Shown in pieces: positions 12,080 through 28,087 of a stretch of DNA of 64,000 bases. Under the pieces are notes generated by a model that worked only from the letters and a program-made list of their open reading frames with translations, did no database searches and was not told the DNA's origin. The translations under genes were made by a program, and so were the position numbers. Source of the stretch: Agromyces sp. S2-1-8 (GTDB lineage: Bacteria > Actinomycetota > Actinomycetes > Actinomycetales > Microbacteriaceae); NCBI RefSeq assembly GCF_021129215.1, contig NZ_JAJOLP010000001.1, positions 1-64,000 of the forward strand, in the 5' to 3' direction. Within the stretch, counting starts at the first letter, position 1, and each line of letters opens with the position of its first letter.

Positions 12080-12137
12080 GATCCGGATGTCCTCTCTGAC
12101 GTGGATCTCGGTGGGTGGGGTGAATCGGGTGGAACTC

Positions 12138-13280
12138 CTAGTCGGCGAGCACGCGGCACGCCGGGGGCGCGAGCTCGATGAACACCGAGCTCCCGTTCGC
12201 GGGCGAGTCGAGGGGCGCGCCGCGCGCGACGAGCGTGCCGGCGACGGCCCGCCCGTCGAGCACCTCGACTTCGACCTCGACGATCTCGCCGAGGAACTCG
12301 ACGCGCACGACCCTGGCGGGCAGCACGTTCGGCCGGTCGGGCGCGGTCTCGTGCCAGCGCACGCTCTCGGGCCGGAAGGTGACGGTGACCTCGCTGCCCG
12401 TGCCGAGCTCGGCCGGGCAGGGGGTCACGAGCTTCGTGCCGAACGCCGAGACGATCGCGTCGCCGTTCGCGTCGCGCCCCTGCACGACCGCGGGGATCAT
12501 GTTGACCCGTCCCACGAAGTCGGCGACGAAGCGGTCGGCCGGCTGGTAGTAGAGCTCGCGCGGCGTCGCCTCCTGCACGATGCGGCCCCCGTTCATGACC
12601 GCGACCCGGTCCGACATCGACAGCGCCTCCGACTGGTCGTGCGTGACGTAGAGCGCGGTGATGCCGAGCTGCTGCTGCAGCCGGCGCAGCTCGTTGCGCA
12701 TGGTGTCGCGGAGCTTCGCGTCGAGGTTCGAGAGCGGCTCGTCGAGCAGCAGCAGCTTGGGCCGGTGGGCGAGCGCGCGGGCGAGCGCGAGGCGCTGCTG
12801 CTGCCCGCCCGAGAGGGCGGTCGCGGGCCGGTGCGCGTAGCCGTCGAGCTGCACGAGCTCGAGCGCCTCCATCGCGCGTTTCCTCGCCTCCTGCTTCGGC
12901 AGCCGGCTGCCCGACACCTGCAGCGGGAACACCGCGTTGGCGAAGACGCTCATGTGCGGCCAGATCGCGTAGTTCTGGAAGACCATGCCGACGTCGCGCT
13001 TGTCGGGCGAGACGTGCGACGACGCGGTCGAGAGCACCCTGCCGTCGAGCGAGATGGTTCCGCCGTTGCTCGTCTCGAGCCCGGCGACGCACCGCAGCGT
13101 GGTCGTCTTGCCGCAGCCCGAGGGGCCGAGCAGCGACGTGAACGTGCCGGGCTCGATCGTGAAGGTCACGCCCTTGACGACGGGCACGTCGGCACCGTCG
13201 AGCGAGTAGTGCTTCTCGAGGCCGTCGACGATCAGGCGTCCGCCTCCGTCTGCTGCGGTCGTGGGGTGCGGCGTCGTCAC
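12138..13280 (-). CDS. ABC transporter ATP-binding protein (FbpC/PotA type, with TOBE domain)
   Basis: 380 residues. Walker A 'GPSGCGKTT' (about residue 52), Q-loop 'VFQNYAIWPHMSV', signature 'LSGGQQQRLALARAL', Walker B 'LLLLDEPLSNLD' and H-loop 'YVTHDQSEAL'. After residue 240 comes the 'DFVGRVNMIPA' start of a C-terminal TOBE-like regulatory domain. This arrangement is shared by iron, polyamine, thiamine and phosphonate importers. It is the first gene of the three-gene transporter unit; binding-protein and permease genes follow 58 and 4 bases later. Confidence 0.88.
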   Translation of the reverse strand: MTTPHPTTAADGGGRLIVDGLEKHYSLDGADVPVVKGVTFTIEPGTFTSLLGPSGCGKTTTLRCVAGLETSNGGTISLDGRVLSTASSHVSPDKRDVGMVFQNYAIWPHMSVFANAVFPLQVSGSRLPKQEARKRAMEALELVQLDGYAHRPATALSGGQQQRLALARALAHRPKLLLLDEPLSNLDAKLRDTMRNELRRLQQQLGITALYVTHDQSEALSMSDRVAVMNGGRIVQEATPRELYYQPADRFVADFVGRVNMIPAVVQGRDANGDAIVSAFGTKLVTPCPAELGTGSEVTVTFRPESVRWHETAPDRPNVLPARVVRVEFLGEIVEVEVEVLDGRAVAGTLVARGAPLDSPANGSSVFIELAPPACRVLAD

Positions 13281-13356: not shown

Positions 13357-14895
13357 TCAGTGCTCGGCGCCCGAGGTCGAGACGGCGGTGCTGCCGGATG
13401 TCGTGGTCGCCGATGTCGCCGACTGCGACGCCGACGTTCGCTCGCCCCATCCGACGGTGACCTTCGGCTTCGCGAAGAACGCCACGACCCCGGCGCACAC
13501 CACGAACCCGGCGACCGCGAGCAGCAGCGACTGCGACATCGCGGCCGAGAACCCGCCCGCGAGCCCGGCCGGCAGCGCTCCCCCGCCCGCCCGGGCCGCG
13601 TCGGCGTCGAAGCCCGGCAGCTGCGCCGCGAGCGTGAGGCTCATGAGCGCGGCGATCGCGGCCGAGCCGAGCACCGACCCGACCTGGCGGGTCATCGTGT
13701 ACACGCCGGACCCGGCACCCGCCTGGTCGCGCGGCAGGTTGCGGGTCGCCGTCGACGCGAGCGGGGCGAAGACCCCCGAGATGCCGAGCCCGAGCACGGC
13801 CGACGGCAGGAGCAGCAGCCAGAGCGAGACATCCGGGCCCATGAGGGCGCTGTACCAGGACAGCGCGAGCGCCGATGTCGAGAGCCCGGCGAGCGACACC
13901 CACTTCGGGTCCACCCGATCGCTGAGCCGGCCGACGAGCGGCGCGAGCACGCCCGAGATCACGGCCATCGGGATGAGCATGAGCGCCGCCTGCGTCGGCG
14001 TGAGCCCGCGCGCCACCTGGAAGTAGAACGCGAGCGGCAGCGGCATGGCCGTCATCGCGAGCCCGACGAGCGAGATCGCGACGTTCGAGAGCGAGAAGTT
14101 GCGGTCGCGGAAGAGCCCGAGCGGCAGCAGCGGCTCGGCCCGGTTGAACGCCTGCCAGACCACGAACCCGGCGAGCACCACGATGCCGGCGACGATCATG
14201 CCCCACACGGTGACCGGGCCCGCGATCGTGCCCCAGTCGTACGTCTGCCCCTCCTGGATGCCGAAGACGACGAGGAACATGCCGACGGCGCTCAGCACGA
14301 CGCCCAGCCAGTCGAAGCGGTGCGCCCGCGTCTCGAGGTCGGGCACGAGTCGCCACGCGGCGACGAAGGCGACGATGCCGACCGGCACGTTGACGAAGAA
14401 CACCCACTGCCAGCCGAGGGAGTCGACGAGCACGCCGCCGAGGATCGGGCCGACGAGCGTCGCGACCCCCGCGACCGAGCCCCAGAGGCCCATCGCCGCG
14501 CCGCGCTGCCGGGGCGGGAAGACGCGCGTGATCACGGCCATCGTCTGCGGGGTCATGAGGGCGGCGCCGAATCCCTGCAGGGCGCGCGCCGCGATCAGCA
14601 GCGCGATCTCGCCCGAGAGCCCGCACCACAGCGAGGCGAGCGTGAACACGACCAGCCCCACGAGGTAGACCCGCTTGGGGCCGAACCGGTCGCCGAGGCG
14701 GCCCGTGATCAGCAGCGGAACGGCGTAGGCGAGCAGGTACGCGCTCGTCACCCAGATCACCGAGGTCAGGTCGGCGTCGAGGTCCTCGAGGATCGCCGGG
14801 TTCGCGATCGACACGATCGTCGTGTCGACGAGGATCATGAAGAACCCGATGACGAGCGCCCACAGGGCGGGCCACGGCCTGGCGGTCTGGTTCAT
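13357..14895 (-). CDS. MFS drug/metabolite exporter, DHA2 (EmrB/QacA) family
   Basis: 512 residues with about 14 membrane segments. Motif A appears as 'GRLGDRFGPKRVYL', motif C region as 'LVGPILGGVLVD', and the N-terminus shows 'FFMILVDTTIVSIANPAI', typical of proton-driven DHA2 exporters. The last 30 residues are Ser/Thr/Ala-rich and cytoplasmic. The gene follows the LVIVD-repeat gene by 50 bases on the same strand, so both may be one transcript. Substrate unknown; the proximity to an aromatic degradation operon allows export of an aromatic acid, but this is inference. Confidence 0.85.
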   Translation of the reverse strand: MNQTARPWPALWALVIGFFMILVDTTIVSIANPAILEDLDADLTSVIWVTSAYLLAYAVPLLITGRLGDRFGPKRVYLVGLVVFTLASLWCGLSGEIALLIAARALQGFGAALMTPQTMAVITRVFPPRQRGAAMGLWGSVAGVATLVGPILGGVLVDSLGWQWVFFVNVPVGIVAFVAAWRLVPDLETRAHRFDWLGVVLSAVGMFLVVFGIQEGQTYDWGTIAGPVTVWGMIVAGIVVLAGFVVWQAFNRAEPLLPLGLFRDRNFSLSNVAISLVGLAMTAMPLPLAFYFQVARGLTPTQAALMLIPMAVISGVLAPLVGRLSDRVDPKWVSLAGLSTSALALSWYSALMGPDVSLWLLLLPSAVLGLGISGVFAPLASTATRNLPRDQAGAGSGVYTMTRQVGSVLGSAAIAALMSLTLAAQLPGFDADAARAGGGALPAGLAGGFSAAMSQSLLLAVAGFVVCAGVVAFFAKPKVTVGWGERTSASQSATSATTTSGSTAVSTSGAEH

Positions 14896-14945: not shown

Positions 14946-16571
14946 CTAGCTCGCGGCGGCGGCGCCCGCGTCGGGCAGGCCGGTGACGGGCTCGCCCAGC
15001 AGGGGCGTCGACACGGCGTAGATGCCGTGGTTCGCGAAGAGCCAGATCAGGTTGCGGTCCCACTCGACGAAGATGCCGTGCACCGGCGCTGCGAGGTCGT
15101 CGTCGTCCTTGAGGCCCATCGGCGGCACGAAGTAGGCGCCGACCTTCGGGTCCTCGGGGTCGCGGACGTCGAAGATCTGCAGCCCCGCCGCGTAGAACGC
15201 GTAGGGGATCACGCCGCCGTGCGGGGTGCCGGTGTTCGTGAAGTAGCCCGAGCGCTTCGGCCCGAACGACCCTCGGCGCTGCGCCCAGTCGGTGAAGGCG
15301 GCCTCGGCCGGCGGAAGCGGCCGGGGCAGGGTGCGCACGACCCGCGGGTTGGTCGGGTCGCTGACGTCGACCTGGTAGATCTCCTTCGCCGGCTCGTAGC
15401 AGTCGGTGTTCATCGGGTAGCCCGAGACGTAGACGTAGCCGGTCTCCTCGACCTGCGTCGTGTCGACGTTGTCGCCCTCCGTGCCGGCGACGCTCGTGGG
15501 CAGCTCGCACCATCCGACGTGGTGGATGTTCGCCGGGTCCGAGACGTCGAGCACGAAGAAGCCCTGGCCGCCCTGGGCGGCGTAGCCGTACTTCCAGCCC
15601 GACTCGACCGAGCGCGGCATGAACACGCCCATGCGCGAGCCGAACCAGCTCGTCTTGTTGTTCCACCGGTCGTTGCCGGCGAGGACCTCGGAGTCGTCCT
15701 CCTCACCCGCGCGGGTGCCGGGCACCCACCACTGCGAGAGCAGCTCGGGGTTCGCCGGGTCGGAGACGTCGTAGGCGGCGTGGCCGGCGGCCCACAGCGT
15801 CGTCCTGTACGGCTGGTTCGTGAAGGTGTTGTCGGGGGCCGTCGCGACGAAGAGGTACTTGTCGCCGTAGTAGACGGGCAGGTCGAGTACGCCGTTGCCC
15901 TCCTGGATCTCGTCCGGCCCATGGTTCGGGTCCGTCGAGATCTCGGTGAGCAGCGTCCAGTCGCGCGGGCTCGGCCCGTTCATCTCCCAGGTGCGGAAGC
16001 CGCGCAGGCCCTCCCACTCCAGCAGCTGCCCCTCGACGGTGTCGTCGGTCCACTTGTTGGCGACGCGCCCCTTGAGGAAGTAGCGCGGGGTCTCGCTGGC
16101 CTGGATGGCGATGTGCTTGCCGAGCTGCTCGTTCCACTGCACGGTGGTCGCGCCGAACTGCGGGCGGGGGTCGGTCCAGCCCCACTGCTCCTCGTCGACG
16201 ATCTTCAGGTCGCGCGGGTCGGTGATGTCGTAGAGCTTCCAGTGGTTGCCGCCGCCGTAGTGCAGCATGTACCGGGTGCCGTCGACGTCGTAGATGCACT
16301 GCCACGAGTGGCTCGTGTTGACGACGATCGGGTAGAACGCCTCGGCCTGCGCGTTGAGGGCGTAGGTCTCGGGGTCGCGGTAGTCGAGCTGGCCGGGCCA
16401 GTCGACGAACACGTCGCGCGGGACCGAGGGGGTCGAGGCCGGCGGCAGGAAGGTGCCGTCGGGCTGCATGCCCCAGCTCGCGGGGTCGGGGTCCGCCGGC
16501 TCGCCGGCCACCCGCTCGAAGTCCTCGGGGCGGTACTTCTTCGCGTCGGGAACGTAGGGAGAGCCGGCCAT
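14946..16571 (-). CDS. LVIVD-repeat, beta-propeller-like protein of unknown function
   Basis: 541 residues with no signal peptide or membrane segment. It contains recurring short units of the form 'YDVSDPANPELL', 'LDVSDPANIHHVG', 'VDVSDPTNPRVVR' and 'FDVRDPEDPKVGAY', which are LVIVD repeats and should form propeller blades. Many Trp, His and Tyr residues surround them. The start at 16571 has a good TGGAGG ribosome site. It lies between the DHA2 exporter and the LysR gene, whose other side faces the 3-hydroxyanthranilate operon. No catalytic motif was recognised; a ligand-binding or metal-dependent role is possible. Confidence 0.7.
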   Translation of the reverse strand: MAGSPYVPDAKKYRPEDFERVAGEPADPDPASWGMQPDGTFLPPASTPSVPRDVFVDWPGQLDYRDPETYALNAQAEAFYPIVVNTSHSWQCIYDVDGTRYMLHYGGGNHWKLYDITDPRDLKIVDEEQWGWTDPRPQFGATTVQWNEQLGKHIAIQASETPRYFLKGRVANKWTDDTVEGQLLEWEGLRGFRTWEMNGPSPRDWTLLTEISTDPNHGPDEIQEGNGVLDLPVYYGDKYLFVATAPDNTFTNQPYRTTLWAAGHAAYDVSDPANPELLSQWWVPGTRAGEEDDSEVLAGNDRWNNKTSWFGSRMGVFMPRSVESGWKYGYAAQGGQGFFVLDVSDPANIHHVGWCELPTSVAGTEGDNVDTTQVEETGYVYVSGYPMNTDCYEPAKEIYQVDVSDPTNPRVVRTLPRPLPPAEAAFTDWAQRRGSFGPKRSGYFTNTGTPHGGVIPYAFYAAGLQIFDVRDPEDPKVGAYFVPPMGLKDDDDLAAPVHGIFVEWDRNLIWLFANHGIYAVSTPLLGEPVTGLPDAGAAAAS

Positions 16572-16711: not shown

Positions 16712-17662
16712 TCAACCCGCGGAGTGCGCGTGCTCGCGCTCGAACTCGGCGAGCCGGGCACCCTCCTCCCGCAGGTGGGCGAGCAGCGCCGCCGCGGCGG
16801 CCGACGGCGCGCGGTCCTTCGGCATCGTGACCCCGACGGACCGCCGGATCGAGCTCAGCGCCGTCGGCAGGAGGCGCAGCTCCTTGTCGTCGACCGCGAC
16901 GAACATCGGCAGCGCCGCGATGACGTCGGTCGTCACGAGCAGGTTCCGCAGCGTCAGCATCGAGGTGCACTCGACGCGGTCGGCGGGCAGCGGCAGCCCC
17001 TCGTGGAAGAACACGGCCTCGAGCTCGGCGCGCAGCGCCGTCTGGGCGACGGGGAAGATCCACGGGTACGCGACGAGGTCGGCGAGCGCGGTCGAACGAT
17101 GGTGCACGGGATGCCCCGCCCTCGCGACGAGCCGGATCGGCTCCTGGTGCAGCCGCTCCTGCTCGAGCCTGACCGGCACGCTCGACGAGAGCCGGCCGAC
17201 GGTGAGGTCGAGGTCGCCCGCGAGCAGCAGCTGCTGCAGGGTGTCGGGCGTGCCCTCGCGCACGACGACGGTGAGTCGCGGGTGCTCCCGCTTGAGCCCG
17301 GCGATCGCCCTCGGCAGCAGCAGGTTCGAGCCCGCGAGGTGCGTGCCGACCGTCACGGTGCCGAGCTGGCCCGACTGCAGCAGCCGCACCTCCTCGCCCG
17401 CGACGCGGAGCTCGGCGAGCACCGACCTGGCGCGCTCGATGAACGGACGGCCGTACTCGGTCGGCGTCACACCCCGCGGCAACCGCTCGAACAACGGCAC
17501 CCCGAGGATCTCCTCGGCCTCGCGGAGCCCGCGGGTCACGACGGGCTGGGTGATGTGCAGCGCCTCGGCGGCGCGCACGAGCGTGCCCTCGTCGGCGATG
17601 GTGGTGACGAGCACGAGATGCCGGATCTTGAGCCGGCCGTCCAGGAGTCGATCGGTGGCCAT
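16712..17662 (-). CDS. LysR-family transcriptional regulator (GbpR/PcaQ-like)
   Basis: 316 residues. The winged HTH is at 13-72 ('EGTLVRAAEALHITQPVVTRGLREAEEILGVPLFER' is the recognisable stretch, seen as 'ALHITQPVVTRGL' at its core), followed by a LysR substrate-binding domain starting 'GTVTVGTHLAG'. It is transcribed divergently from the 3-hydroxyanthranilate operon with only 83 bases between starts, the classic layout for a LysR activator responding to a pathway intermediate. Its -10 (TATAGT, 17671-17676 on the minus strand) is 8 nt before the ATG, so the mRNA is probably leaderless. Confidence 0.88.
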   Translation of the reverse strand: MATDRLLDGRLKIRHLVLVTTIADEGTLVRAAEALHITQPVVTRGLREAEEILGVPLFERLPRGVTPTEYGRPFIERARSVLAELRVAGEEVRLLQSGQLGTVTVGTHLAGSNLLLPRAIAGLKREHPRLTVVVREGTPDTLQQLLLAGDLDLTVGRLSSSVPVRLEQERLHQEPIRLVARAGHPVHHRSTALADLVAYPWIFPVAQTALRAELEAVFFHEGLPLPADRVECTSMLTLRNLLVTTDVIAALPMFVAVDDKELRLLPTALSSIRRSVGVTMPKDRAPSAAAAALLAHLREEGARLAEFEREHAHSAG

Positions 17663-17670
17663 GCCGCAGG

Positions 17671-17739
17671 ACTATAGCCGAAAGGGCATGGCAGTGCAGC
17701 AAGAGAGTATTTGTCGGCATCCCTCCGCCTTCCTAGCCT
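17671..17739. promoter_or_regulatory. Divergent promoters between lysR and the 3-hydroxyanthranilate operon
   Basis: Plus strand: TTGTCG (17711-17716), 17-bp spacer, TAGCCT (17734-17739), then 6 nt to the ATG at 17746, so the start site falls at or near the first base of the start codon. Minus strand: TATAGT (complement of 17671-17676), then 8 nt to the lysR ATG. Both transcripts would be leaderless. The LysR site should lie in the roughly 35 bases between them, but no unambiguous T-N11-A palindrome stands out. Confidence 0.6.
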
Positions 17740-17745
17740 GAAGCC

Positions 17746-19254
17746 ATGCCAACGCAGACGACGACGTCGGCGGTGACGGCGACCGCCGCCCCGCCCGCCC
17801 CGAACCGGCTCCGCAACTTCATCGGGGGCGAACCCGTCGACGGCGTGCGCGGCTTCGACAAGACGAACCCGGTCGACGGCTCGCTCGTCGCGATCGTGCA
17901 CGAGGCGGGCGCCGACGAGGTCGACCGTGCGGTCGCCGCGGCGCGGGCCGCGCTCGAGGGCCCGTGGGGCCGCATGACGGTCGCCGACCGCACCCGCCTG
18001 CTGCGCCGGGTCGCCGACGTCATCGACCGCCGGGCCGACGAGCTCGTCGCGGCCGAGGTCGGCGACACCGGCAAGCCCGAGACCCTCGCCCGCGACCTCG
18101 ACGTCGCCCGGGCGTCGGCGAACTTCCGCGCCGCGGCCGACACGGTCTCGTCGGCCGGCCTCGACTCGTACCTCACCGAGATGCCCGACGGGCGCCGCGC
18201 GCTGAACTACGCCGTGCGCAAGCCGCTCGGCGTCGTCGCGGTGATCGTGCCGTGGAACCTGCCGCTGCTGCTGCTGACGTGGAAGCTCGCCCCCGCCCTC
18301 ACCGCGGGCAACACCGTCGTCGTGAAGCCCTCCGAGGAGACGCCCTCGTCGGCCACGCTCCTCGCCGAGATCCTCGTGGAGGCGGGCGTGCCCGCCGGCG
18401 TCGTGAACGTCGTGCACGGATTCGGCACCCGCTCGGCGGGCGAACTGCTGACGAGGCATCCCGGCATCGACGGGGTCACGTTCACGGGCGAGTCGTCGAC
18501 CGGGTCGGCGATCATGCGAGCGGTCGCCCCGCGGGTGCGGCCGGTCTCGTTCGAGCTCGGCGGCAAGAACGCCGCCGTCGTCTTCGCCGACGCCGACCTC
18601 GATGCCGCGATCGCCGGACTCGCCCGCTCGACCTACCTCAACACGGGCCAGGTCTGCCTCTGCACCGAGCGCATCTACGTCGAGCGCTCGATCTTCGCCG
18701 ATGTCGCGGCCGGGCTCGCCGAGCAGGCGTCGCGCCTGCGGCTCGGTCGCCCCGAGGACCCGGCGACGACGACCGGCCCGCTCATCTCGCAGGCGCACCG
18801 CGACAAGGTGCTCGGATACTTCGAGCTCGCCCGCGAGGAGGGCGCGACGGTGCTCGCGGGCGGCGGCGTGCCCGCCCTCGGCGGCGACCTCGACGGCGGG
18901 TCGTGGATCGAGCCGACCCTCTGGACGGGCCTCGACAACTCCCACCGCACGATGCGCGAGGAGGTCTTCGGACCGGTCGCCGCGATCGTGCCCTTCGACA
19001 CCGAGGAGGAGGCGATCGCCCTCGCGAACGACACCGACTACGGGCTCGCCGCCGTGACGTGGACGAGCGACCTCACCCGCGGCCACCGCGTCGCCCAGCG
19101 GATGCGGGTCGGCATGTCGTGGGTGAACACCTGGTACCTGCGCGACCTGCGCAGCCCGTTCGGCGGTGTCGGGCTCTCCGGCGTGGGCCGCGAGGGCGGC
19201 CGGCACTCGCTCGAGTTCTACACCGAGCCGACGAACGTGTGCGTGCAGCTGTGA
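17746..19254 (+). CDS. nbaE: 2-aminomuconate 6-semialdehyde dehydrogenase
   Basis: 502 residues of the aldehyde dehydrogenase superfamily: '[20 protein letters not shown]', 'KPSEETP', '[10 protein letters not shown]', general-base Glu270 in 'FELGGKN', catalytic Cys304 in '[11 protein letters not shown]', C-terminal '[16 protein letters not shown]'. The closest type is the hydroxymuconic/aminomuconic semialdehyde dehydrogenases. With the dioxygenase and decarboxylase genes downstream in the same operon, the expected reaction is NAD-dependent oxidation of 2-aminomuconate 6-semialdehyde to 2-aminomuconate. A 2-hydroxymuconic semialdehyde activity is the main alternative. It is the first gene of the operon. 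Confidence 0.85.
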
Positions 19255-20138
19255 GCGGGCAGAGCGCGCCGGCCTGGTCTGGCGAGCACGAGGTGACGGA
19301 TGCCTCGGGCGCGACGACCTCGACGATCGGGGCCCCGGACGCGGATGCCTCGTGGCGCGACGCCGACGAACGGCTGCGCGCCGCCGCCCGCACCGGCGTG
19401 GCGTGCGCCCCCGTGCGCGAGCTCATCGGCGAGACCGACGAGCGCGCGGCCTACGCCGTGCAGTCGCTCGGCGTCGAGCGGCGCCTCGCCGAGGGCCGCC
19501 GCATCGTCGGCCGCAAGATCGGGCTCACCTCGCCCGCCGTGCAGGCGCAGTTCGGCGTCTACACGCCCGACTACGGGGTGCTGCTCGACGACATGGTCTT
19601 CGCCGACCGCGAGCCGATCGACCTCGGCCGCTTCCTGCAGCCCCGCGCCGAGGCCGAGGTCGCGTTCGTGCTCGGCCGCGACCTCGACTCCCCCACGGCG
19701 CACGTCGCCGACGTGATCCGCGCGACCGAGTTCGTGCTGCCCGCGATCGAGGTCGTCGACTCCCGCATCGCGGGCTGGGACATCCGCATCACCGACACGA
19801 TCGCCGACAACGCCTCGAGCGGGGCGGTCGTGCTCGGCACCACCCCGCACCGCCTCGACGGGCTCGACCTCGCGGGGGTGGGCATGCGGCTCGACCACGG
19901 CGGCGAACCCGTGTCGACCGGGTCGGGTGCCGCGTGCCTCGGCAACCCGGTGATCGCCGTCGCGTGGCTCGCCCGTGCCGTCGCGCGGCACGGCCGGCCG
20001 CTCCGTGCGGGCGAGGTCATCCTCTCGGGCGCCCTCGGCCCGATGGTCGCCGCCGCCGAGGGCGTGTTCCACGCCCGGCTCGACGGCCTCGGCGAGGTGC
20101 GGGCCGACTTCACGACCACGGAAGGAGCCGCGGCATGA
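19251..20138 (+). CDS. 2-oxopent-4-enoate hydratase (MhpD/DmpE family)
   Basis: 295 residues from a GTG start that overlaps the preceding TGA by 4 nt. The fumarylacetoacetase-like fold is marked by '[19 protein letters not shown]', '[12 protein letters not shown]', '[17 protein letters not shown]' (metal-binding acidic residues) and '[12 protein letters not shown]'. It hydrates 2-oxopent-4-enoate to 4-hydroxy-2-oxovalerate. The first 40 residues are extra relative to the family; another in-frame GTG at 19293 gives a more typical length, but translational coupling favours 19251. The extra segment has two copies of the window's GGATGCCTCG 10-mer. Confidence 0.85.
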
Positions 20139-21091
20139 CGACCGGCGTCGCCATCATCGGATCCGGCAACATCGGCACCGACCTGCTCATCAAGGTCAAG
20201 CGCCTCTCGTCGACCCTGCGGGTCGTCGCGATGGCCGGCATCGACCCCGACTCCGACGGGCTCGCCCGCGCGCGCCGGCTGGGCGTCGCGACGACGCACG
20301 AGGGCGTCGACGGCCTCGTCGCCATGCCCGAGTTCGAGGACGTCGAGCTCGTCTTCGACGCGACGAGTGCGGGCGCGCACGCCCGGAACGACGCGCTGGT
20401 CCGCGACGCCGGCCGCGTCATGGTCGACCTCACCCCCGCCGCGATCGGCCCCTACGTCGTGCCCGTCGTGAACCTCGGCGAGCACCTCGGCGCGACGAAC
20501 GTCAACATGGTGACGTGCGGCGGCCAGGCGACGGTGCCGATGGTGGCGGCGGTCTCGCGCGTCGCGCCCGTCGCCTACGCCGAGATCGTCGCCTCGATCT
20601 CATCGCGCTCGGCGGGCCCCGGCACGCGCGCGAACATCGACGAGTTCACGCAGACCACGGCACGCGCGCTCGAGGTCATCGGCGGCGCCGAGCGCGGCAA
20701 GGCGATCATCGTGCTGAACCCGGCCGAGCCGCCGCTCATCATGCGCGACACGGTCTACTGCCTCGTCGAGCACGACGACGGGGCCCCGCTCGACGAGGCC
20801 GCCGTGCGCGCCTCGGTCGACGCGATGGTCGCCGACGTGCAGGGCTACGTCGGCGGCTACCGGCTCAAGCAGCGGGTGCAGTTCGACCCGGTCGACGAGC
20901 CCTGCGTGCCCGCGCTCGACCGGCCGTTCCGCGGTACGCGCGTGACCCTCCTGCTCGAGGTCGCCGGCGCCGGCCACTACCTTCCCGAGTACGCGGGCAA
21001 CCTCGACATCATGACCTCGGCGGCGCTGCGCACCGCCGAGCGCCTCGTCGCCGAACGCGCGACCGCCGAACCGCAGGGAGCGAGCGCATGA
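20135..21091 (+). CDS. Acetaldehyde dehydrogenase, acylating (MhpF/DmpF family)
   Basis: 318 residues. Rossmann start '[17 protein letters not shown]', then catalytic Cys128 in '[15 protein letters not shown]', and the domain-swapped '[22 protein letters not shown]'. It converts acetaldehyde and CoA to acetyl-CoA with NAD+. The partner aldolase is the next gene, overlapping by 4 nt, and these two proteins normally form a heterotetramer with a tunnel for acetaldehyde. Start ATG overlaps the preceding stop (ATGA). Confidence 0.93.
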
Positions 21092-22155
21092 CCGAGATCA
21101 CCCCCGACGCGACATCCCCCGACGGCCCGAAGGCCTACGTGCAGGACGTCACCCTGCGCGACGGCATGCACGCCATGGCCCACCGCTACACGCTCGACCA
21201 GGTCCGCGACATCTCGCGCGCCCTCGAGGCCGCGGGCGTCGACGCGATCGAGGTCGCCCACGGCGACGGCCTCGGCGGTTCGAGCGTCGCCTACGGCCAG
21301 GGCGCGCACACCGACTGGCAGTGGATCGAGGCGGCCGCCTCGGTGCTCGAGCGTGCGAAGCTCACGACGCTGATCCTGCCCGGCATCGGCACGATCGACG
21401 ACCTCGCCCGTGCCCGCGACCTCGGCGTCGCGAGCGTGCGCGTCGCCACCCACTGCACCGAGGCCGACGTCGCCGCGCAGCACATCGGCTGGGCGCGCGA
21501 GCACGGCATGGACGTCTCGGGCTTCCTCATGATGAGCCACATGAACGACCCGCGCGGCCTCGCCGAGCAGGCCCGGCTCATGGAGTCGTACGGCGCCCAC
21601 TGCGTCTACGTCACCGACTCGGGCGGGCGGCTCACGATGCGGGATGTCGCCGACCGGGTCGACGCGTACCGCGAGGTGCTCGCCCCCGAGACCCAGATCG
21701 GCATCCACGCGCACGAGAACCTCTCGCTCAGCGTCGCGAACAGCGTGACCGCCGTCGAGCACGGCGCCTTCCGCGTCGACGCCTCGCTCGCGGGGCAGGG
21801 CGCGGGCGCCGGCAACTGCCCCATCGAGGCGTTCGTCGCCGTCGCCGACCTCGTCGGCTTCGAGCACGGCTGCGACCTGTTCGCCCTGCAGGATGCCGCG
21901 GAGGAACTCGTCCGTCCCCTCCAGCGCCGGCCCGTCCGGGTCGACCGCGAGACCCTCACGCTCGGCTACGCGGGCGTGTACTCGAGCTTCCTCCTGCATG
22001 CCGAGCGGGCCGCCGAGCGGCACGGGCTCGACGCCCGCGACATCCTCGTCGAACTCGGCAGCCGCCGCATGGTCGGCGGCCAGGAGGACATGATCGTCGA
22101 CGTCGCGCTCGACCTCGTCGAGGCGCGGTCCGCGGCCGCCGGAGGTGCGGCGTGA
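21088..22155 (+). CDS. 4-hydroxy-2-oxovalerate aldolase (MhpE/DmpG family)
   Basis: 355 residues. The HMGL-like TIM barrel begins '[13 protein letters not shown]' (metal-binding Asp and catalytic residues), continues with '[12 protein letters not shown]', and has the metal-binding '[15 protein letters not shown]' segment and the C-terminal communication domain that contacts the dehydrogenase. It cleaves 4-hydroxy-2-oxovalerate into pyruvate and acetaldehyde. Its start overlaps the dehydrogenase stop by 4 nt, consistent with the stoichiometric complex. Confidence 0.93.
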
Positions 22156-22943
22156 CCGCCGCCTCGGCCTTCGCGGCGGCCCTCGACCGCGCCCAGCGCA
22201 CCGCATCGCCGACGACCCAGCTCGCCGCCGACGCGGCGATCGGCCTCGACGCCGCCTACGCGACCCAGCACGCCCTCCTCGCCCGCCGGGTCGCCCGCGG
22301 CGAACGCATCGCGGGCTTGAAGCTCGGCTTCACCTCGCGCGCCAAGGCGCAGCAGATGGGCGTCGACGACGTCATCATCGGCACCGTCACCGACGCCATG
22401 CGACTCGAGAACGGCGGGGTGTTCGACGTCTCGACGGCGATCCACCCCCGCATCGAACCCGAGGTCGCCTACCTGCTCGGCGACGACCTCGACGACCCCG
22501 CGCTCGCCGCGTCCGACGCGGTCGGCGCCGTCGCCGGGGTCGCGCCCGCGCTCGAGGTCATCGACTCGCGCTACCGCGACTTCACGTTCAGCCTCGACGA
22601 CGTCGTGGCCGACAACGCCTCGGCCGCGGCGTTCGCGATCGGACCGTGGCGGTCGCCCGAGGCGGTCTGGCCGCTCGACAACCGGGCCGTCCGACTCGAG
22701 ATCGACGGCCGGCTGTCGCAGGCCGGCTCGACCGCCGCGATCCTCGGCGACCCGGTGCGGGCGCTCGACGCCGCGCTCCGTCTCGCCCGCCGGCACGGCT
22801 TCGCGCTGCGCGCCGGCATGGTGCTGCTCGCGGGGGCGGCGACCGTCGCGGTGCCGCTGCCGGCCCGCGGCGTCGTCACGGCGCACGTCGCCGGGCTCGG
22901 CGAGGTCTCGGTGCGCGCGAACGGCGACGGGGGTGCGCGATGA
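22152..22943 (+). CDS. 4-oxalocrotonate decarboxylase (DmpH/NbaG family)
   Basis: 263 residues from a GTG start overlapping the aldolase stop. It is a paralogue of the hydratase with the decarboxylase-type variants '[19 protein letters not shown]' and '[17 protein letters not shown]'. It removes CO2 from 2-oxo-3-hexenedioate to give 2-oxopent-4-enoate, the substrate of the hydratase encoded three genes earlier; the two enzymes usually form a complex. In the aminomuconate route no tautomerase is required before this step, matching the absence of a tautomerase gene here. Confidence 0.85.
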
Positions 22944-23404
22944 CCGACGCCCGAGGCATCCTCGTCACCGGCAAGGCGACGCCGCGCGGCCGGTTCCCGC
23001 ACGCCCGGGTCTCGGGCGACCTCGTGTTCGTGTCGGGCACCTCGAGCAGGCGCCCCGACAACACGATCGCGGGCGCGGAGGCCGACGAGTTCGGCGCGAC
23101 GCGGCTCGACATCGCCGTGCAGACGCGCGCCGTCATCGAGAACATCCGCGAGATCCTGTCCGAGGCGGGCTGCACGCTCGACGACCTCGTGCAGGCGACG
23201 AGCTACCTCGTCGACATGAACGACTTCGCCGGCTACAACGCGGTCTGGGCCGAGTACTTCGACGAGCGCGGGCCCGCCCGCACGACCGTCGCCGTGCACC
23301 AGCTGCCGCACCCGCACCTGCGCATCGAGATCCAGGCGATCGCGCGACGCCCCGACGCATCCCACGACCCCAGCGCCACAACTCTCGAGGAGGAGAACCA
23401 ATGA
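22940..23404 (+). CDS. nbaF: 2-aminomuconate deaminase (RidA/YjgF family)
   Basis: 154 residues, a single RidA-type domain: '[25 protein letters not shown]' reduced here to its landmark 'VFVSGTSS', then '[19 protein letters not shown]' and '[18 protein letters not shown]'. The longer N- and C-termini match the aminomuconate deaminase subgroup rather than short generic RidA. In this operon it should hydrolyse 2-aminomuconate to 4-oxalocrotonate and ammonia. Start overlaps the preceding stop by 4 nt. Confidence 0.82.
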
Positions 23405-23925
23405 GCACCATCCCACCCGTCATCGATTTCGCCGCGTGGATCAAGGAGCACGAGCACCTGCTCCAGCCCCCGGTGAACAACAAGCAGGCGTTCATCCCGA
23501 TGAACGACTTCATCGTGCAGGTCGTCGGCGGCCCGAACCAGCGCACCGACTTCCACTTCGACCCGTACGAGGAGTGGTTCTACCAGTACCGGGGCAACAT
23601 GCACGTCAACATCCAGACCGAGGACGGCCCGCAGCGCATCGACATCCGCGAGGGCGAGATGTGGCTGCTGCCCGGCAACGTGTACCACTCGCCCCAGCGC
23701 CCCGAGGCCGGCTCGATCGGCATCGTCATCGAGCGCATCCGCGAGGAGGGCACCCTCGAGAAGTTCGCCTGGTTCTGCCCGAACTGCAACGAGAAGGTGC
23801 ACGAGGTCGAGCTGCAGGTGCGCGACATCGTCGAGGACCTGCCGCCCGTCTTCCGCGAGTTCTACGAGAGCGAAGAGGGTCGGACGTGCCCGAAGTGCGG
23901 CACCGTCCACCCCGGCAAGGGCTGA
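23401..23925 (+). CDS. nbaC: 3-hydroxyanthranilate 3,4-dioxygenase
   Basis: 174 residues, cupin fold. The active-site set known from the bacterial enzyme is complete: Arg48, His52, Glu58, His96, Arg100 and Glu111 (each one residue later than in the Cupriavidus enzyme). Two CxxC pairs, Cys126/Cys129 and Cys163/Cys166, form the second, rubredoxin-like metal site typical of bacterial homologues. It opens the ring of 3-hydroxyanthranilate to 2-amino-3-carboxymuconate 6-semialdehyde using Fe(II) and O2. It overlaps its neighbour upstream by 4 nt and is 5 nt before the decarboxylase. Confidence 0.95.
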
Positions 23926-23930
23926 ACCCG

Positions 23931-24923
23931 TTGGGCACGATCGACGTCCACACGCACTTCGTGCCGCACGCCTGGCCCGACCTCGCCGCCGAGGTCGGGC
24001 CCGGCGTCTGGCCGACGCTGCGGGTGGACTCCGAGCGCGAGGCGATGATCATGCTCGGCTCGAGCGAGTTCCGGCGCATCGACGACCGCTGCTGGAACGC
24101 CGAGGCGCGCCTCGCCGACATGGACGCCGACGGCGTCGAACTGCAGGTCGTCTCGCCGACCCCGCTCTTCTTCTCGTACACGGCGGCGGCCGACGAGGGC
24201 GCGAAGGTCGCACGCATCTTCAACGACCTCGCGCTCGAGCTGTGCGAGCAGGCGCCCGACCGGCTCGTGCCGTTCGCACAGGTGCCGTTGCAGAGCACCG
24301 ACGCCGCGTGCGCCGAGGCGTCGCGCGCGATCGCCTCGGGCCACGCCGGCGTCGAGATCGGCAACCACGTCGGCGATCGCGACCTCGACGACGAGGGCGT
24401 CGTCACCTTCCTGCAGCACTGTGCGGCCGAGGGCATCCCCGTGTTCGTGCACCCGTGGGACATGGCGAACTCGCCCCGCCTCGACCGCTGGATGGCGCGC
24501 TGGCTCGCGGGCATGCCCGCCGAGACCCACCTGTCGATCATCTCGATGATCCTCGGCGGCGTCTTCGACCGGGTGCCCGCGTCGCTCCGCATCGCGTTCG
24601 CGCACGGCGGCGGGTCGTTCGCGTTCTGGCTCGGCCGCTTCGAGAACGCCTGGCACCAGCGGCGCGATCTCATCGGCGTCAGCGAGCGGCCGCCCTCGGA
24701 CTACCTCGACCGGTTCAGCGTCGACTCCGTCGTGTTCGACCCGCCTGCGCTGCGGCTGCTCGTCGACACGCTCGGCGCCGAGCAGGTCATGGTCGGCAGC
24801 GACTACCCGTACCCGCTCGGTGAACGCCCCGTCGGATCGGTCGTCGACCGCGCCGAGTTCCTCAGCCCCGCCCAGTGCGAGGCGATCCGCCGCGGAAACG
24901 CGCTGCGGTTCCTGGGGCGGTAG
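23931..24923 (+). CDS. nbaD: 2-amino-3-carboxymuconate 6-semialdehyde decarboxylase (ACMSD)
   Basis: 330 residues of the amidohydrolase superfamily. Zinc ligands: His7 and His9 in 'IDVHTHF', His174 in 'FVHPWDM', His225 in 'FAHGGG' and Asp291 in 'GSDYPYPLG', all at family spacing. It decarboxylates the unstable dioxygenase product to 2-aminomuconate 6-semialdehyde, preventing spontaneous closure to quinolinate. The start is TTG at 23931: it gives the family N-terminus directly, and no ATG or GTG exists between the preceding stop and the HxH motif. Confidence 0.92.
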   Translation: MGTIDVHTHFVPHAWPDLAAEVGPGVWPTLRVDSEREAMIMLGSSEFRRIDDRCWNAEARLADMDADGVELQVVSPTPLFFSYTAAADEGAKVARIFNDLALELCEQAPDRLVPFAQVPLQSTDAACAEASRAIASGHAGVEIGNHVGDRDLDDEGVVTFLQHCAAEGIPVFVHPWDMANSPRLDRWMARWLAGMPAETHLSIISMILGGVFDRVPASLRIAFAHGGGSFAFWLGRFENAWHQRRDLIGVSERPPSDYLDRFSVDSVVFDPPALRLLVDTLGAEQVMVGSDYPYPLGERPVGSVVDRAEFLSPAQCEAIRRGNALRFLGR

Positions 24924-24978
24924 CGCCCCTCGGCCACCCCTTTGGCCTCGCCTCGACCCACGATCCGGAGAACCGCAC

Positions 24979-26295
24979 ATGAGCCTCGCGACATCCCCCC
25001 AGCTCACGATCGACCGCGCGACGTGCGCCGCCCTCGACGCGGCCGACCCGCTCGCCGGGTTCCGCGAGCGATTCGACCTTCCCGCGGGCGTCGTCTACCT
25101 CGACGGCAACTCGCTCGGAGCGCTGCCGAGGGCGACGCCCGCGCATGTCGAGCGGGTCATCCGCGAGGAGTGGGGCACCGGGCTGATCCGCAGCTGGAAC
25201 GACGCCGGCTGGTTCGACAAGCCGCGCGCGCTGGGCGACCGCATCGCCCCGCTCATCGGTGCCGCCCAGGGCGAGGTCGTGCTCGGCGACTCCACGTCGT
25301 CGAGCCTGTTCCAGGTCGCGGTCGCGGCGACCAGGCTGCGACCCGGCCGACGGGTGATCGTGTCGGAGCGCGGCAGCTTCCCGACCGACCTGTACATCCT
25401 CGAGGGCGTCCAGGAGCTCGCGGGCGCCGACGCCGGCGGGCCGCTCGAGCGACGGCTCATCGACGACGAGGCCGACCTCGACGACGTTCTCGGCGACGAC
25501 GTCGCGGTCGTCGTGCTCACTCACGTGAACTACCGCACGGGGCGCATGTACGACCTGGCCGACGTCACCCGGCGGGTGCACGAGGCCGGCGCGCTCATGG
25601 TGTGGGACCTCTGCCACTCGGTCGGCGCCGTGCCGGTCGACCTGGCCGGCGCCGGCGCCGACTTCGCGATCGGGTGCACGTACAAGTACCTCAACGGCGG
25701 ACCGGGCTCGCCCTCGTTCATCTGGGTCGCGGAGCGGCACCATGCCGAGGCGCGCCCCGCGCTCACCGGGTGGCACGGGCACGCGAGGCCGTTCGACTTC
25801 GGCCTCGACTACGCGCCGGCCGACGGGGTCGCCCGGTTCCGGGTGGGCACCCCGCAGCTGCTCTCGGTCGCGGGGCTCGAGGCGAGCCTCGACGTGTGGG
25901 CCGACGTCGATCTCGAAGCGCTGCGCGAGAAGAGCCTGCGCCTCACCGAGCTGTTCATCTCGCTCGTCGACACCCGGCTCGCGCGGTGGGACGTCGAGGT
26001 GGTCTCGCCCCGTCAGTCCGCGCGCCGCGGCAGCCAGGTCGCGCTGCGGTTCGGCGGCGACGACGGCGTGCGCGACGGGCTGCCCGAGACGGCCGACGGC
26101 TACGCGGTCATGCAGGCGATCATCGGGCGCGGCGTCATCGGCGACTTCCGCGCGCCCGACCTCATGCGTTTCGGCTTCGCCCCGCTCTACGTCTCGCACA
26201 CCGATGTCTGGGACGCGGTCGCGGTGCTCGAGGACGTGCTCGCGACCGAGACCTGGCGCGAGCCGCGCTTCGCACGCCGCGGCGCCGTCACCTGA
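24979..26295 (+). CDS. kynU: Kynureninase
   Basis: 438 residues, fold-type I PLP enzyme. It begins with the kynureninase hallmark 'VVYLDGNSLGALPRATP', then 'SWNDAGWFDKP', 'VLGDSTSSSLFQV', 'HVNYRTGRMYD', 'WDLCHSVGAVPVDL' and the PLP lysine Lys236 in 'CTYKYLNGGPGSP'. It hydrolyses kynurenine to anthranilate and 3-hydroxykynurenine to 3-hydroxyanthranilate, plus alanine. The latter feeds the dioxygenase encoded upstream. ATG at 24979 has CCGGAG upstream; a 55-base gap separates it from the ACMSD gene. Tryptophan dioxygenase, formamidase and kynurenine monooxygenase genes are not in the window. Confidence 0.93.
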   Translation: MSLATSPQLTIDRATCAALDAADPLAGFRERFDLPAGVVYLDGNSLGALPRATPAHVERVIREEWGTGLIRSWNDAGWFDKPRALGDRIAPLIGAAQGEVVLGDSTSSSLFQVAVAATRLRPGRRVIVSERGSFPTDLYILEGVQELAGADAGGPLERRLIDDEADLDDVLGDDVAVVVLTHVNYRTGRMYDLADVTRRVHEAGALMVWDLCHSVGAVPVDLAGAGADFAIGCTYKYLNGGPGSPSFIWVAERHHAEARPALTGWHGHARPFDFGLDYAPADGVARFRVGTPQLLSVAGLEASLDVWADVDLEALREKSLRLTELFISLVDTRLARWDVEVVSPRQSARRGSQVALRFGGDDGVRDGLPETADGYAVMQAIIGRGVIGDFRAPDLMRFGFAPLYVSHTDVWDAVAVLEDVLATETWREPRFARRGAVT

Positions 26296-26527: not shown

Positions 26528-28087
26528 ATGAAGCCCACCGTGCAGACACTGCTCGCCCGCCCCGAGCTGGGCCTCGGCCTCCTCACGCCCATCGAGTCGC
26601 TGTCGGCCGGCGCACTCGACGCGCCCGTCGTGTGGGCGCACAGCTCCGACCTCGCCGACCCGACGCCGTTCCTCGACGCCGGGCACGTGCTACTCACGAC
26701 CGGCACCCAGTTCGCCGAGGGCGTCGTCGGCGACGATGCGGGCGAAGCCGGGTTCGCCGACGCGTACGTCGCCCGCCTGCGCGCGACCGGCATCGCGGCG
26801 CTCGGCTTCGGCACCGAGGTCATCCGCGCCGGCACGCCCGAGGCGCTCGTGGCCGCCTGCACCGCGCAGGGCCTCCCGCTCTTCGAGGTGCCGTACCGGG
26901 TGCCGTTCATCGCCATCGCCCGCACGGTCGCCGACCTCATCGCCGAAGACGCGTACGCCCGTCAGGCGTGGGCGCTCGCGGCGCAGCGCGCGATCTCGCT
27001 CGCCGCCCTCCGGCCCGACGGCCTCTCGGCCACCCTCGCCGAGCTCTCGAACCGGCTCGGCACCTGGGTCGGGCTCATCGACGCGACCGGCACGCTCGAC
27101 CGCGAGGCGCCGGCCGACGGACTGCCGCAGCCCGCGCTCGGCGAGGTCGTGGGCGAGGCCCGCTCGATGATCCGGCGCGGCCAGCGCGCGAGCCGCACCC
27201 TCGTCGCCGGCGAGTCGACCGGGGCTCCGCAGCGCATGACCCTCCAGACCCTCGGCGGCGGCGGGGCCCTGCGCGGAGTGCTCGCGATCGGCGACTCCGC
27301 CGAGCTCGACGCCGCCGGCCGGGAGGTCGTGAACGCGGTGATCGCCCTCGCCGGGCTCGCGCTCGAGCAGAACCGCGACCTCGACCGCGCCCGCGGTCAC
27401 CTGCGATCGGGGCTGCTCCGCGGCATCCTCGACGGCGACACGGCGCTCGCCGAGCGCGTGTCGGCCGAGATGTGGGGGCCGCTTCCCGAGGCACCCGTGC
27501 GCGTCATGGTCACGGATGCCCCGGCCCAGGTCGACCGACTGACCGAACTGCTCGAACTGCGCGTCGAGGAGCGCGGCGGGCGACTGTTCTTCGGGCGGGA
27601 CGACGAACGGTTCGTGCTCATCGTCGAGGAGGGCGACGCCCCGCTGGCCGAGGAGCTCGCGACCGAGTTCGAGCTTCCGGTCGGCGTCTCCGACCCGGTC
27701 GCCGACGCGGGCGTTCCGCAGGCGCACGAGCAGGCGCTGCGCGCCCTCGACCGGGCGCGCGAGAGCGGCGCCGGCGTCGTCAACTTCGACGAGATCAGCC
27801 GGCAGGGCGTGCTCGCCTTCCTCGCGCGCACCGACGCACGCGCCGTCGCGCTCGCGACGCTGGCCCCGCTCACCGAGCACGATGCCGCGAACGGCACGAC
27901 GCTCGTCGAGACCACGCGGACCTGGCTCGAGCACGGCGGCCAGTTCGACGCCACCGCGCAGGAGCTCGGCGTGCACCGGCACACGGTGCGCAGCCGCATC
28001 GCCCTCGCCGAGCGGCTGCTCGGGCGCGACCTCTCGGGCTTCCACGCGCGCGCCGACCTGTGGGCGGCACTGCTCGCGGTCGAGTAG
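26528..28087 (+). CDS. PucR-family transcriptional regulator
   Basis: 519 residues. An N-terminal PucR sensory domain (about 5-125, with 'VVWAHSSDLADPTPFLDAGHVLLTTG' condensed to 'GHVLLTTGTQF'), a middle GGDEF-like/CdaR domain, and a C-terminal PucR HTH (about 455-515) containing 'ATAQELGVHRHTVRSRI'-like sequence ('LGVHRHTVRSRIALAE' visible). It senses a small metabolite and controls nitrogen-compound catabolism in known relatives, including GABA use. The paired GTAC palindromes before this gene and before gabT suggest it regulates itself and the gab/putrescine operon 18 kb away rather than the kynurenine genes next door. Confidence 0.85.
   Translation: MKPTVQTLLARPELGLGLLTPIESLSAGALDAPVVWAHSSDLADPTPFLDAGHVLLTTGTQFAEGVVGDDAGEAGFADAYVARLRATGIAALGFGTEVIRAGTPEALVAACTAQGLPLFEVPYRVPFIAIARTVADLIAEDAYARQAWALAAQRAISLAALRPDGLSATLAELSNRLGTWVGLIDATGTLDREAPADGLPQPALGEVVGEARSMIRRGQRASRTLVAGESTGAPQRMTLQTLGGGGALRGVLAIGDSAELDAAGREVVNAVIALAGLALEQNRDLDRARGHLRSGLLRGILDGDTALAERVSAEMWGPLPEAPVRVMVTDAPAQVDRLTELLELRVEERGGRLFFGRDDERFVLIVEEGDAPLAEELATEFELPVGVSDPVADAGVPQAHEQALRALDRARESGAGVVNFDEISRQGVLAFLARTDARAVALATLAPLTEHDAANGTTLVETTRTWLEHGGQFDATAQELGVHRHTVRSRIALAERLLGRDLSGFHARADLWAALLAVE

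Follow-up and report, generated by a model that had tools for sequence, protein, structure and literature searches.

Propeller protein and kynureninase at a 3-hydroxyanthranilate catabolic operon of Agromyces lacking a recognized kynurenine 3-monooxygenase

In the 64,000-nucleotide stretch of Agromyces sp. S2-1-8 analyzed here (NZ_JAJOLP010000001.1, positions 1 to 64,000 of the forward strand; hereafter the window), nine plus-strand genes at 17746-26295 encode a pathway from 3-hydroxyanthranilate (3-HAA) to pyruvate and acetyl-CoA together with a kynureninase, KynU1. The lower pathway from 3-HAA is securely assigned; where its substrate comes from is the question that the locus raises. The main unsolved point is that 3-hydroxyanthranilate 3,4-dioxygenase (HAO) needs 3-HAA, yet neither a kynurenine 3-monooxygenase (KMO) nor a kynureninase of the 3-hydroxykynurenine type was found. 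Divergent from the operon lies a gene for an LVIVD-repeat β-propeller protein, and this propeller pairs with KynU1-type kynureninases and not with KMO-bearing operons. Our preferred, though tentative, reading is that LysR controls a module for 3-HAA catabolism, a variant without KMO, in which the propeller serves the feeding step ahead of KynU1.

Pairing of the propeller with kynureninase

The propeller (14946..16571, minus strand) has 541 residues, matches PF08309 at 27.5 bits (gathering cut-off 20.2) and, by eye, shows no signal peptide; membership of this repeat family carries no information on the reaction. KynU1 (24979..26295, plus strand) scores above the cut-off of TIGR01814 (314 bits) and aligns with 1qz9 at E 4e-134. 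The source genome (4.10 Mb, 2 contigs, 99.99% complete) has many named relatives with the same operon, which occurs in 22 loci of Agromyces, Microbacterium, and Leifsonia (L026-L046, L051); the HAO of the nearest, in Agromyces lapidis, is 98% identical. All nine genes and the LysR gene are seen in 19 of these loci, while three (L033, L038, L040) are truncated contigs that start 0.6 to 1.4 kb before HAO and expose only the downstream part. Because gene order repeats in named relatives, the operon is not a chance assembly. The LVIVD gene is found in 19 of the 22 loci at 88-94% identity, the remaining three again being contigs that start no more than 1.4 kb before HAO.

An even sample of 239 genomes of the family places this association in context. 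PF06052 matched 11 genomes, six of which, including the source genome, were counted as having a true HAO (E 7e-48 or better); five partial, weak matches (E 1.6e-5 to 5.3e-4) were dropped, one of them (G044) slightly above the Pfam cut-off. The LVIVD query matched 10 genomes, from which four orthologues (88-100%) were kept and six partial matches of 25-35% dropped. All four orthologues fall within the six HAO-bearing genomes, an overlap that would arise by chance with a probability of 1e-7 were the genomes independent of one another, though this independence does not hold. Two pairs (G165/G250 and G235/G251) gave identical matches, and the members of each were taken as the same genome. One orthologue (G235:C16:6135-7739) has two in-frame TGA codons and is possibly a pseudogene or reflects a sequencing error. 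The other two HAO-bearing genomes, G017 (locus L105) and G139 (L106), have the operon with a LysR gene. Their loci show no kynureninase, and genome searches recovered neither LVIVD nor TDO (tryptophan dioxygenase), so the 3-HAA source must differ there. By eye, transporters lie near the G017 operon and a thiamine pyrophosphate-dependent enzyme near that of G139.

Outside Microbacteriaceae, full-length LVIVD homologues (40-48%) were retrieved from 13 of 394 Streptomycetaceae genomes and from 40 of 72,556 plasmid records, 23 of the latter from Phaeobacter. A kynU gene lies beside LVIVD in nine of the 13 Streptomycetaceae loci, all nine with HAO, and the order within the fetched stretches is LysR, aldehyde dehydrogenase, FAH, FAH, RidA, HAO, ACMSD (the semialdehyde decarboxylase described below), acylating dehydrogenase, aldolase, kynU, LVIVD, followed in six of the nine by an amino acid permease. 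The Streptomyces cyaneofuscatus plasmid NZ_CP108862 (L139) holds the same nine enzymes as the window plus LysR and LVIVD (HAO 52%, KynU 49%, LVIVD 44% identical), but there LVIVD stands in line after kynU, has an apparent signal peptide and is joined by an amino acid permease. Its LVIVD and permease genes are 100% identical to those of G372, which may be the same strain or species. Twelve of the 40 plasmid records were opened, and kynU was present in the fetched stretch of nine: Streptomyces, Ensifer (2), Shinella, Niveispirillum, Cupriavidus, Diaphorobacter, Tritonibacter, and Phaeobacter porticola. HAO accompanies it in five of these (Streptomyces, both Ensifer, Shinella, Cupriavidus). In Phaeobacter gallaeciensis, the fetched stretch extends 9.8 kb upstream of LVIVD and shows no kynU; the gene ends 10.3 kb upstream in P. 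porticola.

Some of these plasmid loci have their own character. On those of Ensifer, Shinella, Phaeobacter, and Tritonibacter (L141:1-5791, L143:1-5823, L142, L147, L149), LVIVD occurs with a DHDPS-family gene and an aspartate dehydrogenase gene, the Ensifer and Shinella loci adding HAO and succinate-semialdehyde dehydrogenase; ACMSD did not appear in any of the fetched stretches, and a different route of 3-HAA breakdown is possibly encoded. Directly after the LVIVD gene, the megaplasmid of Cupriavidus metallidurans encodes a protein with a cytochrome c domain (PF00034, L145:13563-13979). The Ensifer homologue has no PF08309 match at E ≤ 0.001.

The type of kynureninase separates LVIVD-linked loci from KMO-linked ones. 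We take human H102, S332, and N333, in that numbering, to be the substrate-determining pocket positions. A review (PMC7461572) states that kynurenine is the preferred substrate of bacterial kynureninases and 3-hydroxykynurenine that of the eukaryotic enzymes, and that the residues responsible are known. KynU1 and the second kynureninase of the genome, KynU2, have Trp and Gly-Thr in the pocket, as does the Pseudomonas fluorescens enzyme 1qz9; in KynU1 these are W73 and G290-T291, and residue comparison finds none of the eukaryote-like residues of the 3-hydroxykynurenine type. LVIVD-linked kynureninases outside Microbacteriaceae show Trp/Gly-Thr in 13 of 18 cases, Trp/Ser-Thr in three Streptomycetaceae, and His/Gly-Thr in Phaeobacter and Tritonibacter. 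By contrast, three Nocardioides operons (L048-L050; amidohydrolase, kynU, KMO, aldehyde dehydrogenase, FAH, RidA, HAO, ACMSD), whose enzymes are close to those of the window, carry KMO between kynureninase and aldehyde dehydrogenase, and their kynureninases have His and Ser-Asn as in the human enzyme. This combination occurs in all three KMO-linked kynureninases and in no LVIVD-linked copy, and the fetched Nocardioides stretches hold no homologue of LVIVD, LysR, aldolase, or acylating dehydrogenase. A role at the feeding step is suggested for the propeller because it tracks KynU1-type kynureninase across phyla and is not found where KMO and a human-type kynureninase serve.

Core and kynureninase also appear to have different relatives. 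A tree of the aldehyde dehydrogenase (16 of 18 rows; Strep_L153 and Nive_L140 were left out because the stretch ends inside the gene) joins the Microbacteriaceae operon with Nocardioides, Amycolatopsis, and the two Microbacteriaceae whose loci lack kynU (support 100/99) and sets Streptomyces and Cupriavidus apart; HAO and ACMSD identities agree where these genes are present. Identities to Nocardioides L049 exceed those to Streptomyces L139 for aldehyde dehydrogenase (78 vs 58%), HAO (75 vs 52%), and ACMSD (71 vs 49%), whereas KynU1 reverses the relation (36 vs 49%) and is 49-53% identical to the LVIVD-adjoining kynureninases of Streptomyces, Ensifer, and Cupriavidus. Searches for LVIVD at the Nocardioides, Amycolatopsis, G139, and G017 loci were negative. 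Kynureninase and propeller thus appear to form one unit, which either was added separately to related cores or disappeared from some of them.

The search for a route into 3-hydroxyanthranilate

The preliminary description noted that TDO, formamidase, and KMO genes are missing from the window, which is true as far as we looked, and proposed seeking them elsewhere in the genome. TDO is indeed present elsewhere, forming one overlapping cluster with an amidohydrolase and KynU2 at C1:1127452-1130623. It passes TIGR03036 (402 bits, cut-off 391), and KynU2 falls slightly under the kynureninase cut-off (229 vs 246 bits). The search for kynB yielded two PF04199 (KynB-type) proteins, L024 and L025, neither of which adjoins TDO; L024 matches TIGR03035 at 66 bits (cut-off 223). 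The amidohydrolase adjoins TDO in 24 of 24 fetched Microbacteriaceae loci, and KynU2 lies beside TDO in 23, the exception (L093) ending at a contig end; amidohydrolase homologues (47-55%) precede kynU in the three Nocardioides operons. It is thus a candidate noncanonical N-formylkynurenine formamidase. No specific model names either this protein (L003:8209-9234, minus strand) or a Nocardioides counterpart (L049:3681-4583, plus strand). TDO was found in 31 of 33 genomes chosen for having HAO, among them all 22 named Microbacteriaceae with the operon, besides the source genome; it also occurs in 81 of the 239 family-sample genomes, 77 of these without a true HAO, and was for that reason dropped as strong proof of a tryptophan route.

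KMO, the other member of the canonical route from kynurenine to 3-HAA, was not found. All 10 PDB matches of the Nocardioides L049 protein at E ≤ 1e-20 are KMOs, and with this query all three Nocardioides were recovered at 81-100%. The source genome gave no match to it at E ≤ 0.001, a limit that a very distant KMO might escape, and the 22 named Agromyces, Microbacterium, and Leifsonia genomes with the operon hold no close KMO (best E 5.6e-17 at 30%). Some match at E ≤ 0.001 exists in 32 of the 33 genomes; outside Nocardioides and Amycolatopsis, these read as generic FAD hydroxylases. Under a limit of E 1e-15, five of 19 entries matched (the Nocardioides control, a KMO homologue at 45% identity, and three further entries at 30-32%), and none of five LVIVD plasmid records did so (plasmid sequence alone, with chromosomes outside the search). 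NCBIfam is unable to name KMO, as a verified KMO passes no cut-off among the models listed (best VioC, below its own). In Amycolatopsis, a KMO homologue of 36% identity lies some 8 kb away from a TDO-like gene that contains an internal stop, and a sequence search revealed no kynureninase at its HAO locus.

The FAD hydroxylases of the source genome were considered individually as KMO candidates. PF01494 (FAD_binding_3) marks 20 places, of which five proteins (L004-L007 and L008/L010, the last matched in two pieces) cover most of the model and the rest are short N-terminal or partial. None of the five resembles KMO. Within the limits used, PDB matches included no KMO for L004 (polyketide/rifampin-type oxygenases), L006 (rifampin monooxygenase-like), or L007 (tetracycline destructases and 6-hydroxynicotinate 3-monooxygenase). 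L005 belongs with phenol 2-monooxygenase (PRK08294) and reaches KMO by BLAST at only E 0.016; L008 scores 519 bits with PRK07538 (cut-off 400), and its BLAST alignment to KMO (E 3e-05) covers the FAD motif only. The earlier suggestion that the operon uses kynurenine or 3-hydroxykynurenine from tryptophan therefore stands in part: TDO, amidohydrolase, and KynU2 exist, but since no KMO was found in the source genome, known enzymes leave a gap between kynurenine and 3-HAA, and the KynU1 pocket is kynurenine-type. The literature searched offered no paper joining KMO, 3-hydroxyanthranilate, kynureninase, and Microbacterium, nor one tying LVIVD to a dioxygenase or a propeller to kynureninase and 3-hydroxyanthranilate.

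Operon enzymes and neighboring genes

The preliminary description had presented the nine genes as a 3-HAA catabolic operon joined to kynureninase and eight of them as linked by overlaps or a 5-nt gap. Both observations are borne out: all nine genes are in place with supported families, and the junctions among the first eight comprise six 4-nt overlaps and one 5-nt gap (before ACMSD), while a 55-nt gap sets the kynureninase gene off from ACMSD. HAO (23401..23925) lies above the cut-offs of TIGR03037 and PRK13264 and matches PF06052. The 2-amino-3-carboxymuconate 6-semialdehyde decarboxylase (ACMSD, 23931..24923, TTG start) has no NCBIfam match at E ≤ 0.001 and a strong match to solved ACMSDs (2hbv, E 3.2e-103, residues 4-328 aligned). 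The aldehyde dehydrogenase, assigned as 2-aminomuconate 6-semialdehyde dehydrogenase (AMSDH, 17746..19254), exceeds the NCBIfam cut-off as a 2-hydroxymuconic semialdehyde dehydrogenase (TIGR03216, 783 bits), yet its best PDB matches are 2-aminomuconate semialdehyde dehydrogenases (7bzv, 4i1w). Acylating acetaldehyde dehydrogenase (20135..21091; TIGR03215, 455 bits) and 4-hydroxy-2-oxovalerate aldolase with a DmpG communication domain (21088..22155; TIGR03217, 557 bits; PF07836) are also above their cut-offs.

Three proteins score under theirs: a 2-oxopent-4-enoate hydratase-like FAH-fold protein (19251..20138; PRK11342, 308 bits, cut-off 350), a 2-oxo-3-hexenedioate (4-oxalocrotonate) decarboxylase-like FAH-fold protein (22152..22943; TIGR03218, 185 bits, cut-off 351), and a RidA-family protein, presumably 2-aminomuconate deaminase (22940..23404; PF01042; TIGR00004, 84 bits, cut-off 106). 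Their exact roles are for this reason read from the pathway, the choice between hydratase and decarboxylase being a relative ranking. With these three so qualified, all eight steps of the nba/onb-type lower pathway occur together. The enzymes are ordinary, and the catabolic pathway itself is already known. Judging by these families, HAO would open the ring, ACMSD decarboxylate, AMSDH oxidize, and RidA deaminate, after which the two FAH-fold enzymes would decarboxylate and hydrate and the aldolase/acylating dehydrogenase pair would yield pyruvate and acetyl-CoA.

The finding in the preliminary description leaves out the conserved divergent half of the locus. On that side, the LysR-type regulator (16712..17662, minus strand; best NCBIfam model PcaQ, below cut-off) has a conserved position. 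The 83-bp region between it and the operon (17663..17745), which presumably contains the LysR operator and the promoters, is kept, as judged by eye, in 18 further loci of Agromyces and Microbacterium, and part of it recurs within a 53-bp stretch of Leifsonia (L037); such conservation fits one LysR regulator serving both sides. Beyond the propeller gene lies a DHA2-family (EmrB-type) MFS transporter (13357..14895, minus strand; TIGR00711, 313 bits, above cut-off), which adjoins LVIVD in 15 of the 19 Microbacteriaceae loci that have it. A similar MFS transporter also stands beside the TDO cluster (L003:3992-6253), the DHA2 assignment covering the window protein. Two open reading frames past the transporter (12076-13092 and 10913-12079) have no family match. 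A PucR-family regulator (26528-28087, plus strand) follows kynureninase in the Agromyces loci and was not found in those of Microbacterium or Leifsonia.

Explanations weighed

In the KMO-less module that we tentatively favor, LysR would regulate the genes, and KynU1 would supply 3-HAA from 3-hydroxylated kynurenine that has a source other than a known KMO. The propeller would act before or at KynU1 and enable it to deliver 3-HAA, either by converting a kynurenine-type compound or by releasing one; hydroxylation, conjugate hydrolysis, and mere binding are candidate roles. It is apparently exported outside Microbacteriaceae and cytosolic within: by eye, the 25 homologues read outside the family (at least two identical) seem to carry an N-terminal signal peptide, and those inside it do not. 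A Cys pair is present in eight listed non-Microbacteriaceae rows, while the window protein keeps only C391, with Ala430 in place of the partner, a loss that fits a move to the cytosol. Among 29 LVIVD sequences, 104 residues are invariant, many of them charged. A wider claim, which we consider unlikely, is that the LVIVD family is an unrecognized enzyme of kynurenine metabolism in actinobacteria and proteobacteria that supplies a 3-hydroxylated substrate without KMO, by a new hydroxylation or by releasing 3-hydroxykynurenine from a conjugate or pigment, and that moved to the cytosol in Microbacteriaceae.

Several observations weigh against the favored module. The KynU1 pocket, by its residues, argues against 3-hydroxykynurenine as the preferred substrate. 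KMO was not found with a KMO query and a FAD_binding_3 scan, and P450s and two-component monooxygenases were not searched for; one of the 13 LVIVD-positive Streptomycetaceae genomes does have a 45% KMO homologue. TDO need not belong with the operon, being common in the family. Pairing is also incomplete within the fetched stretches, since the other four Streptomycetaceae loci have LysR and no kynU beside LVIVD, Salinivibrio and Burkholderia have LVIVD without kynU, and no HAO was seen in four of the nine kynU-linked plasmid loci. The two-history picture is blurred by the genes for aldolase, acylating dehydrogenase, and the hydratase-like protein. Searches of the Nocardioides and Amycolatopsis loci recovered none of them, apart from a paralogue matching the hydratase-like gene at 37%, yet Streptomyces shares all three at 59-77%, as does G017, which has neither KynU1 at the locus nor LVIVD. 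Apparent export of the homologues outside Microbacteriaceae means that cytosolic hydroxylation cannot be a general step, and a single invariant His (H88) implies no obvious metal or redox center. Finally, the AlphaFold model of the propeller, built from 20 close sequences only, is poor (mean pLDDT 52.7) and names no reaction. Its top Foldseek match is 5hrm (E 9.9e-12, TM 0.44, 14% identity), which we take to be the Sphingobium TCM1 phosphotriesterase, a β-propeller hydrolase; the sequence comparison is not significant (E 0.48 single, 0.042 profile), and VIA-align lists generic propellers, with 5hrm not among the best 50 listed, so that this likeness may serve as a lead only. A profile match to Mpf2Ba1 (E 0.0018 over a short stretch) was read as chance.

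Somewhat less likely than the favored module, the operon may live on external 3-hydroxykynurenine or 3-HAA from animals, plants, fungi, or other bacteria, with no need for a hydroxylase and the propeller as an accessory in binding, oxidation protection, or transport. The missing KMO fits this, as do importers linked in relatives (amino acid permease, ABC and TRAP/TTT systems, porins) and the apparent export of the propeller there, and P. fluorescens-type kynureninases still accept 3-hydroxykynurenine. The many invariant charged residues, however, make the propeller look like an enzyme rather than a scaffold, and the Agromyces protein has no signal peptide by eye and adjoins a transporter of an efflux family. 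An improbable alternative makes tryptophan the true source, with a non-KMO hydroxylase elsewhere producing 3-hydroxykynurenine, or 3-HAA from anthranilate released by KynU2. Colabroy and Begley are said to have described, in 2005, tryptophan catabolism through 3-HAA in Burkholderia with a 3-HAA pathway fed by kynureninase; here, by comparison, no KMO was found and the TDO cluster is located elsewhere in the genome. TDO in every named operon-bearing Microbacteriaceae genome, and in the source genome, speaks for such a source, and FAD hydroxylases without an assigned substrate (the phenol 2-monooxygenase relative and the PRK07538-family protein among them) could provide the activity. Yet most TDO-bearing genomes of the family have no true HAO, no hydroxylase was seen linked to the operon or the TDO locus, and KynU1 would be superfluous if anthranilate were hydroxylated.

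Pseudomonas nba clusters for 2-nitrobenzoate use the same 3-HAA lower pathway, with the same dioxygenase, decarboxylase, dehydrogenase, and deaminase before the steps to acetyl-CoA. The Cupriavidus sp. ST-14 genes onbC-J cover the same set of steps (PMC5817917). A nitroreductase and a mutase might thus make 3-HAA here too, leaving kynureninase a bystander, but we regard this as very improbable. No nitroreductase or hydroxylaminobenzoate mutase gene was seen among the nine genes or in the divergent unit (NbaA/NbaB homologues were not searched for genome-wide), and in place of these genes the locus has kynureninase and a divergent LysR-LVIVD-DHA2 unit. KynU1 is kept in all 22 named Microbacteriaceae loci, and kynureninase in all nine Streptomycetaceae operons.

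Although the pathway is known, no KMO was found for it here and it has an unannotated partner protein conserved in two phyla, which together mark a concrete, testable gap in bacterial kynurenine catabolism. If the propeller is an enzyme, it would add a step to a pathway whose intermediates matter in animals.

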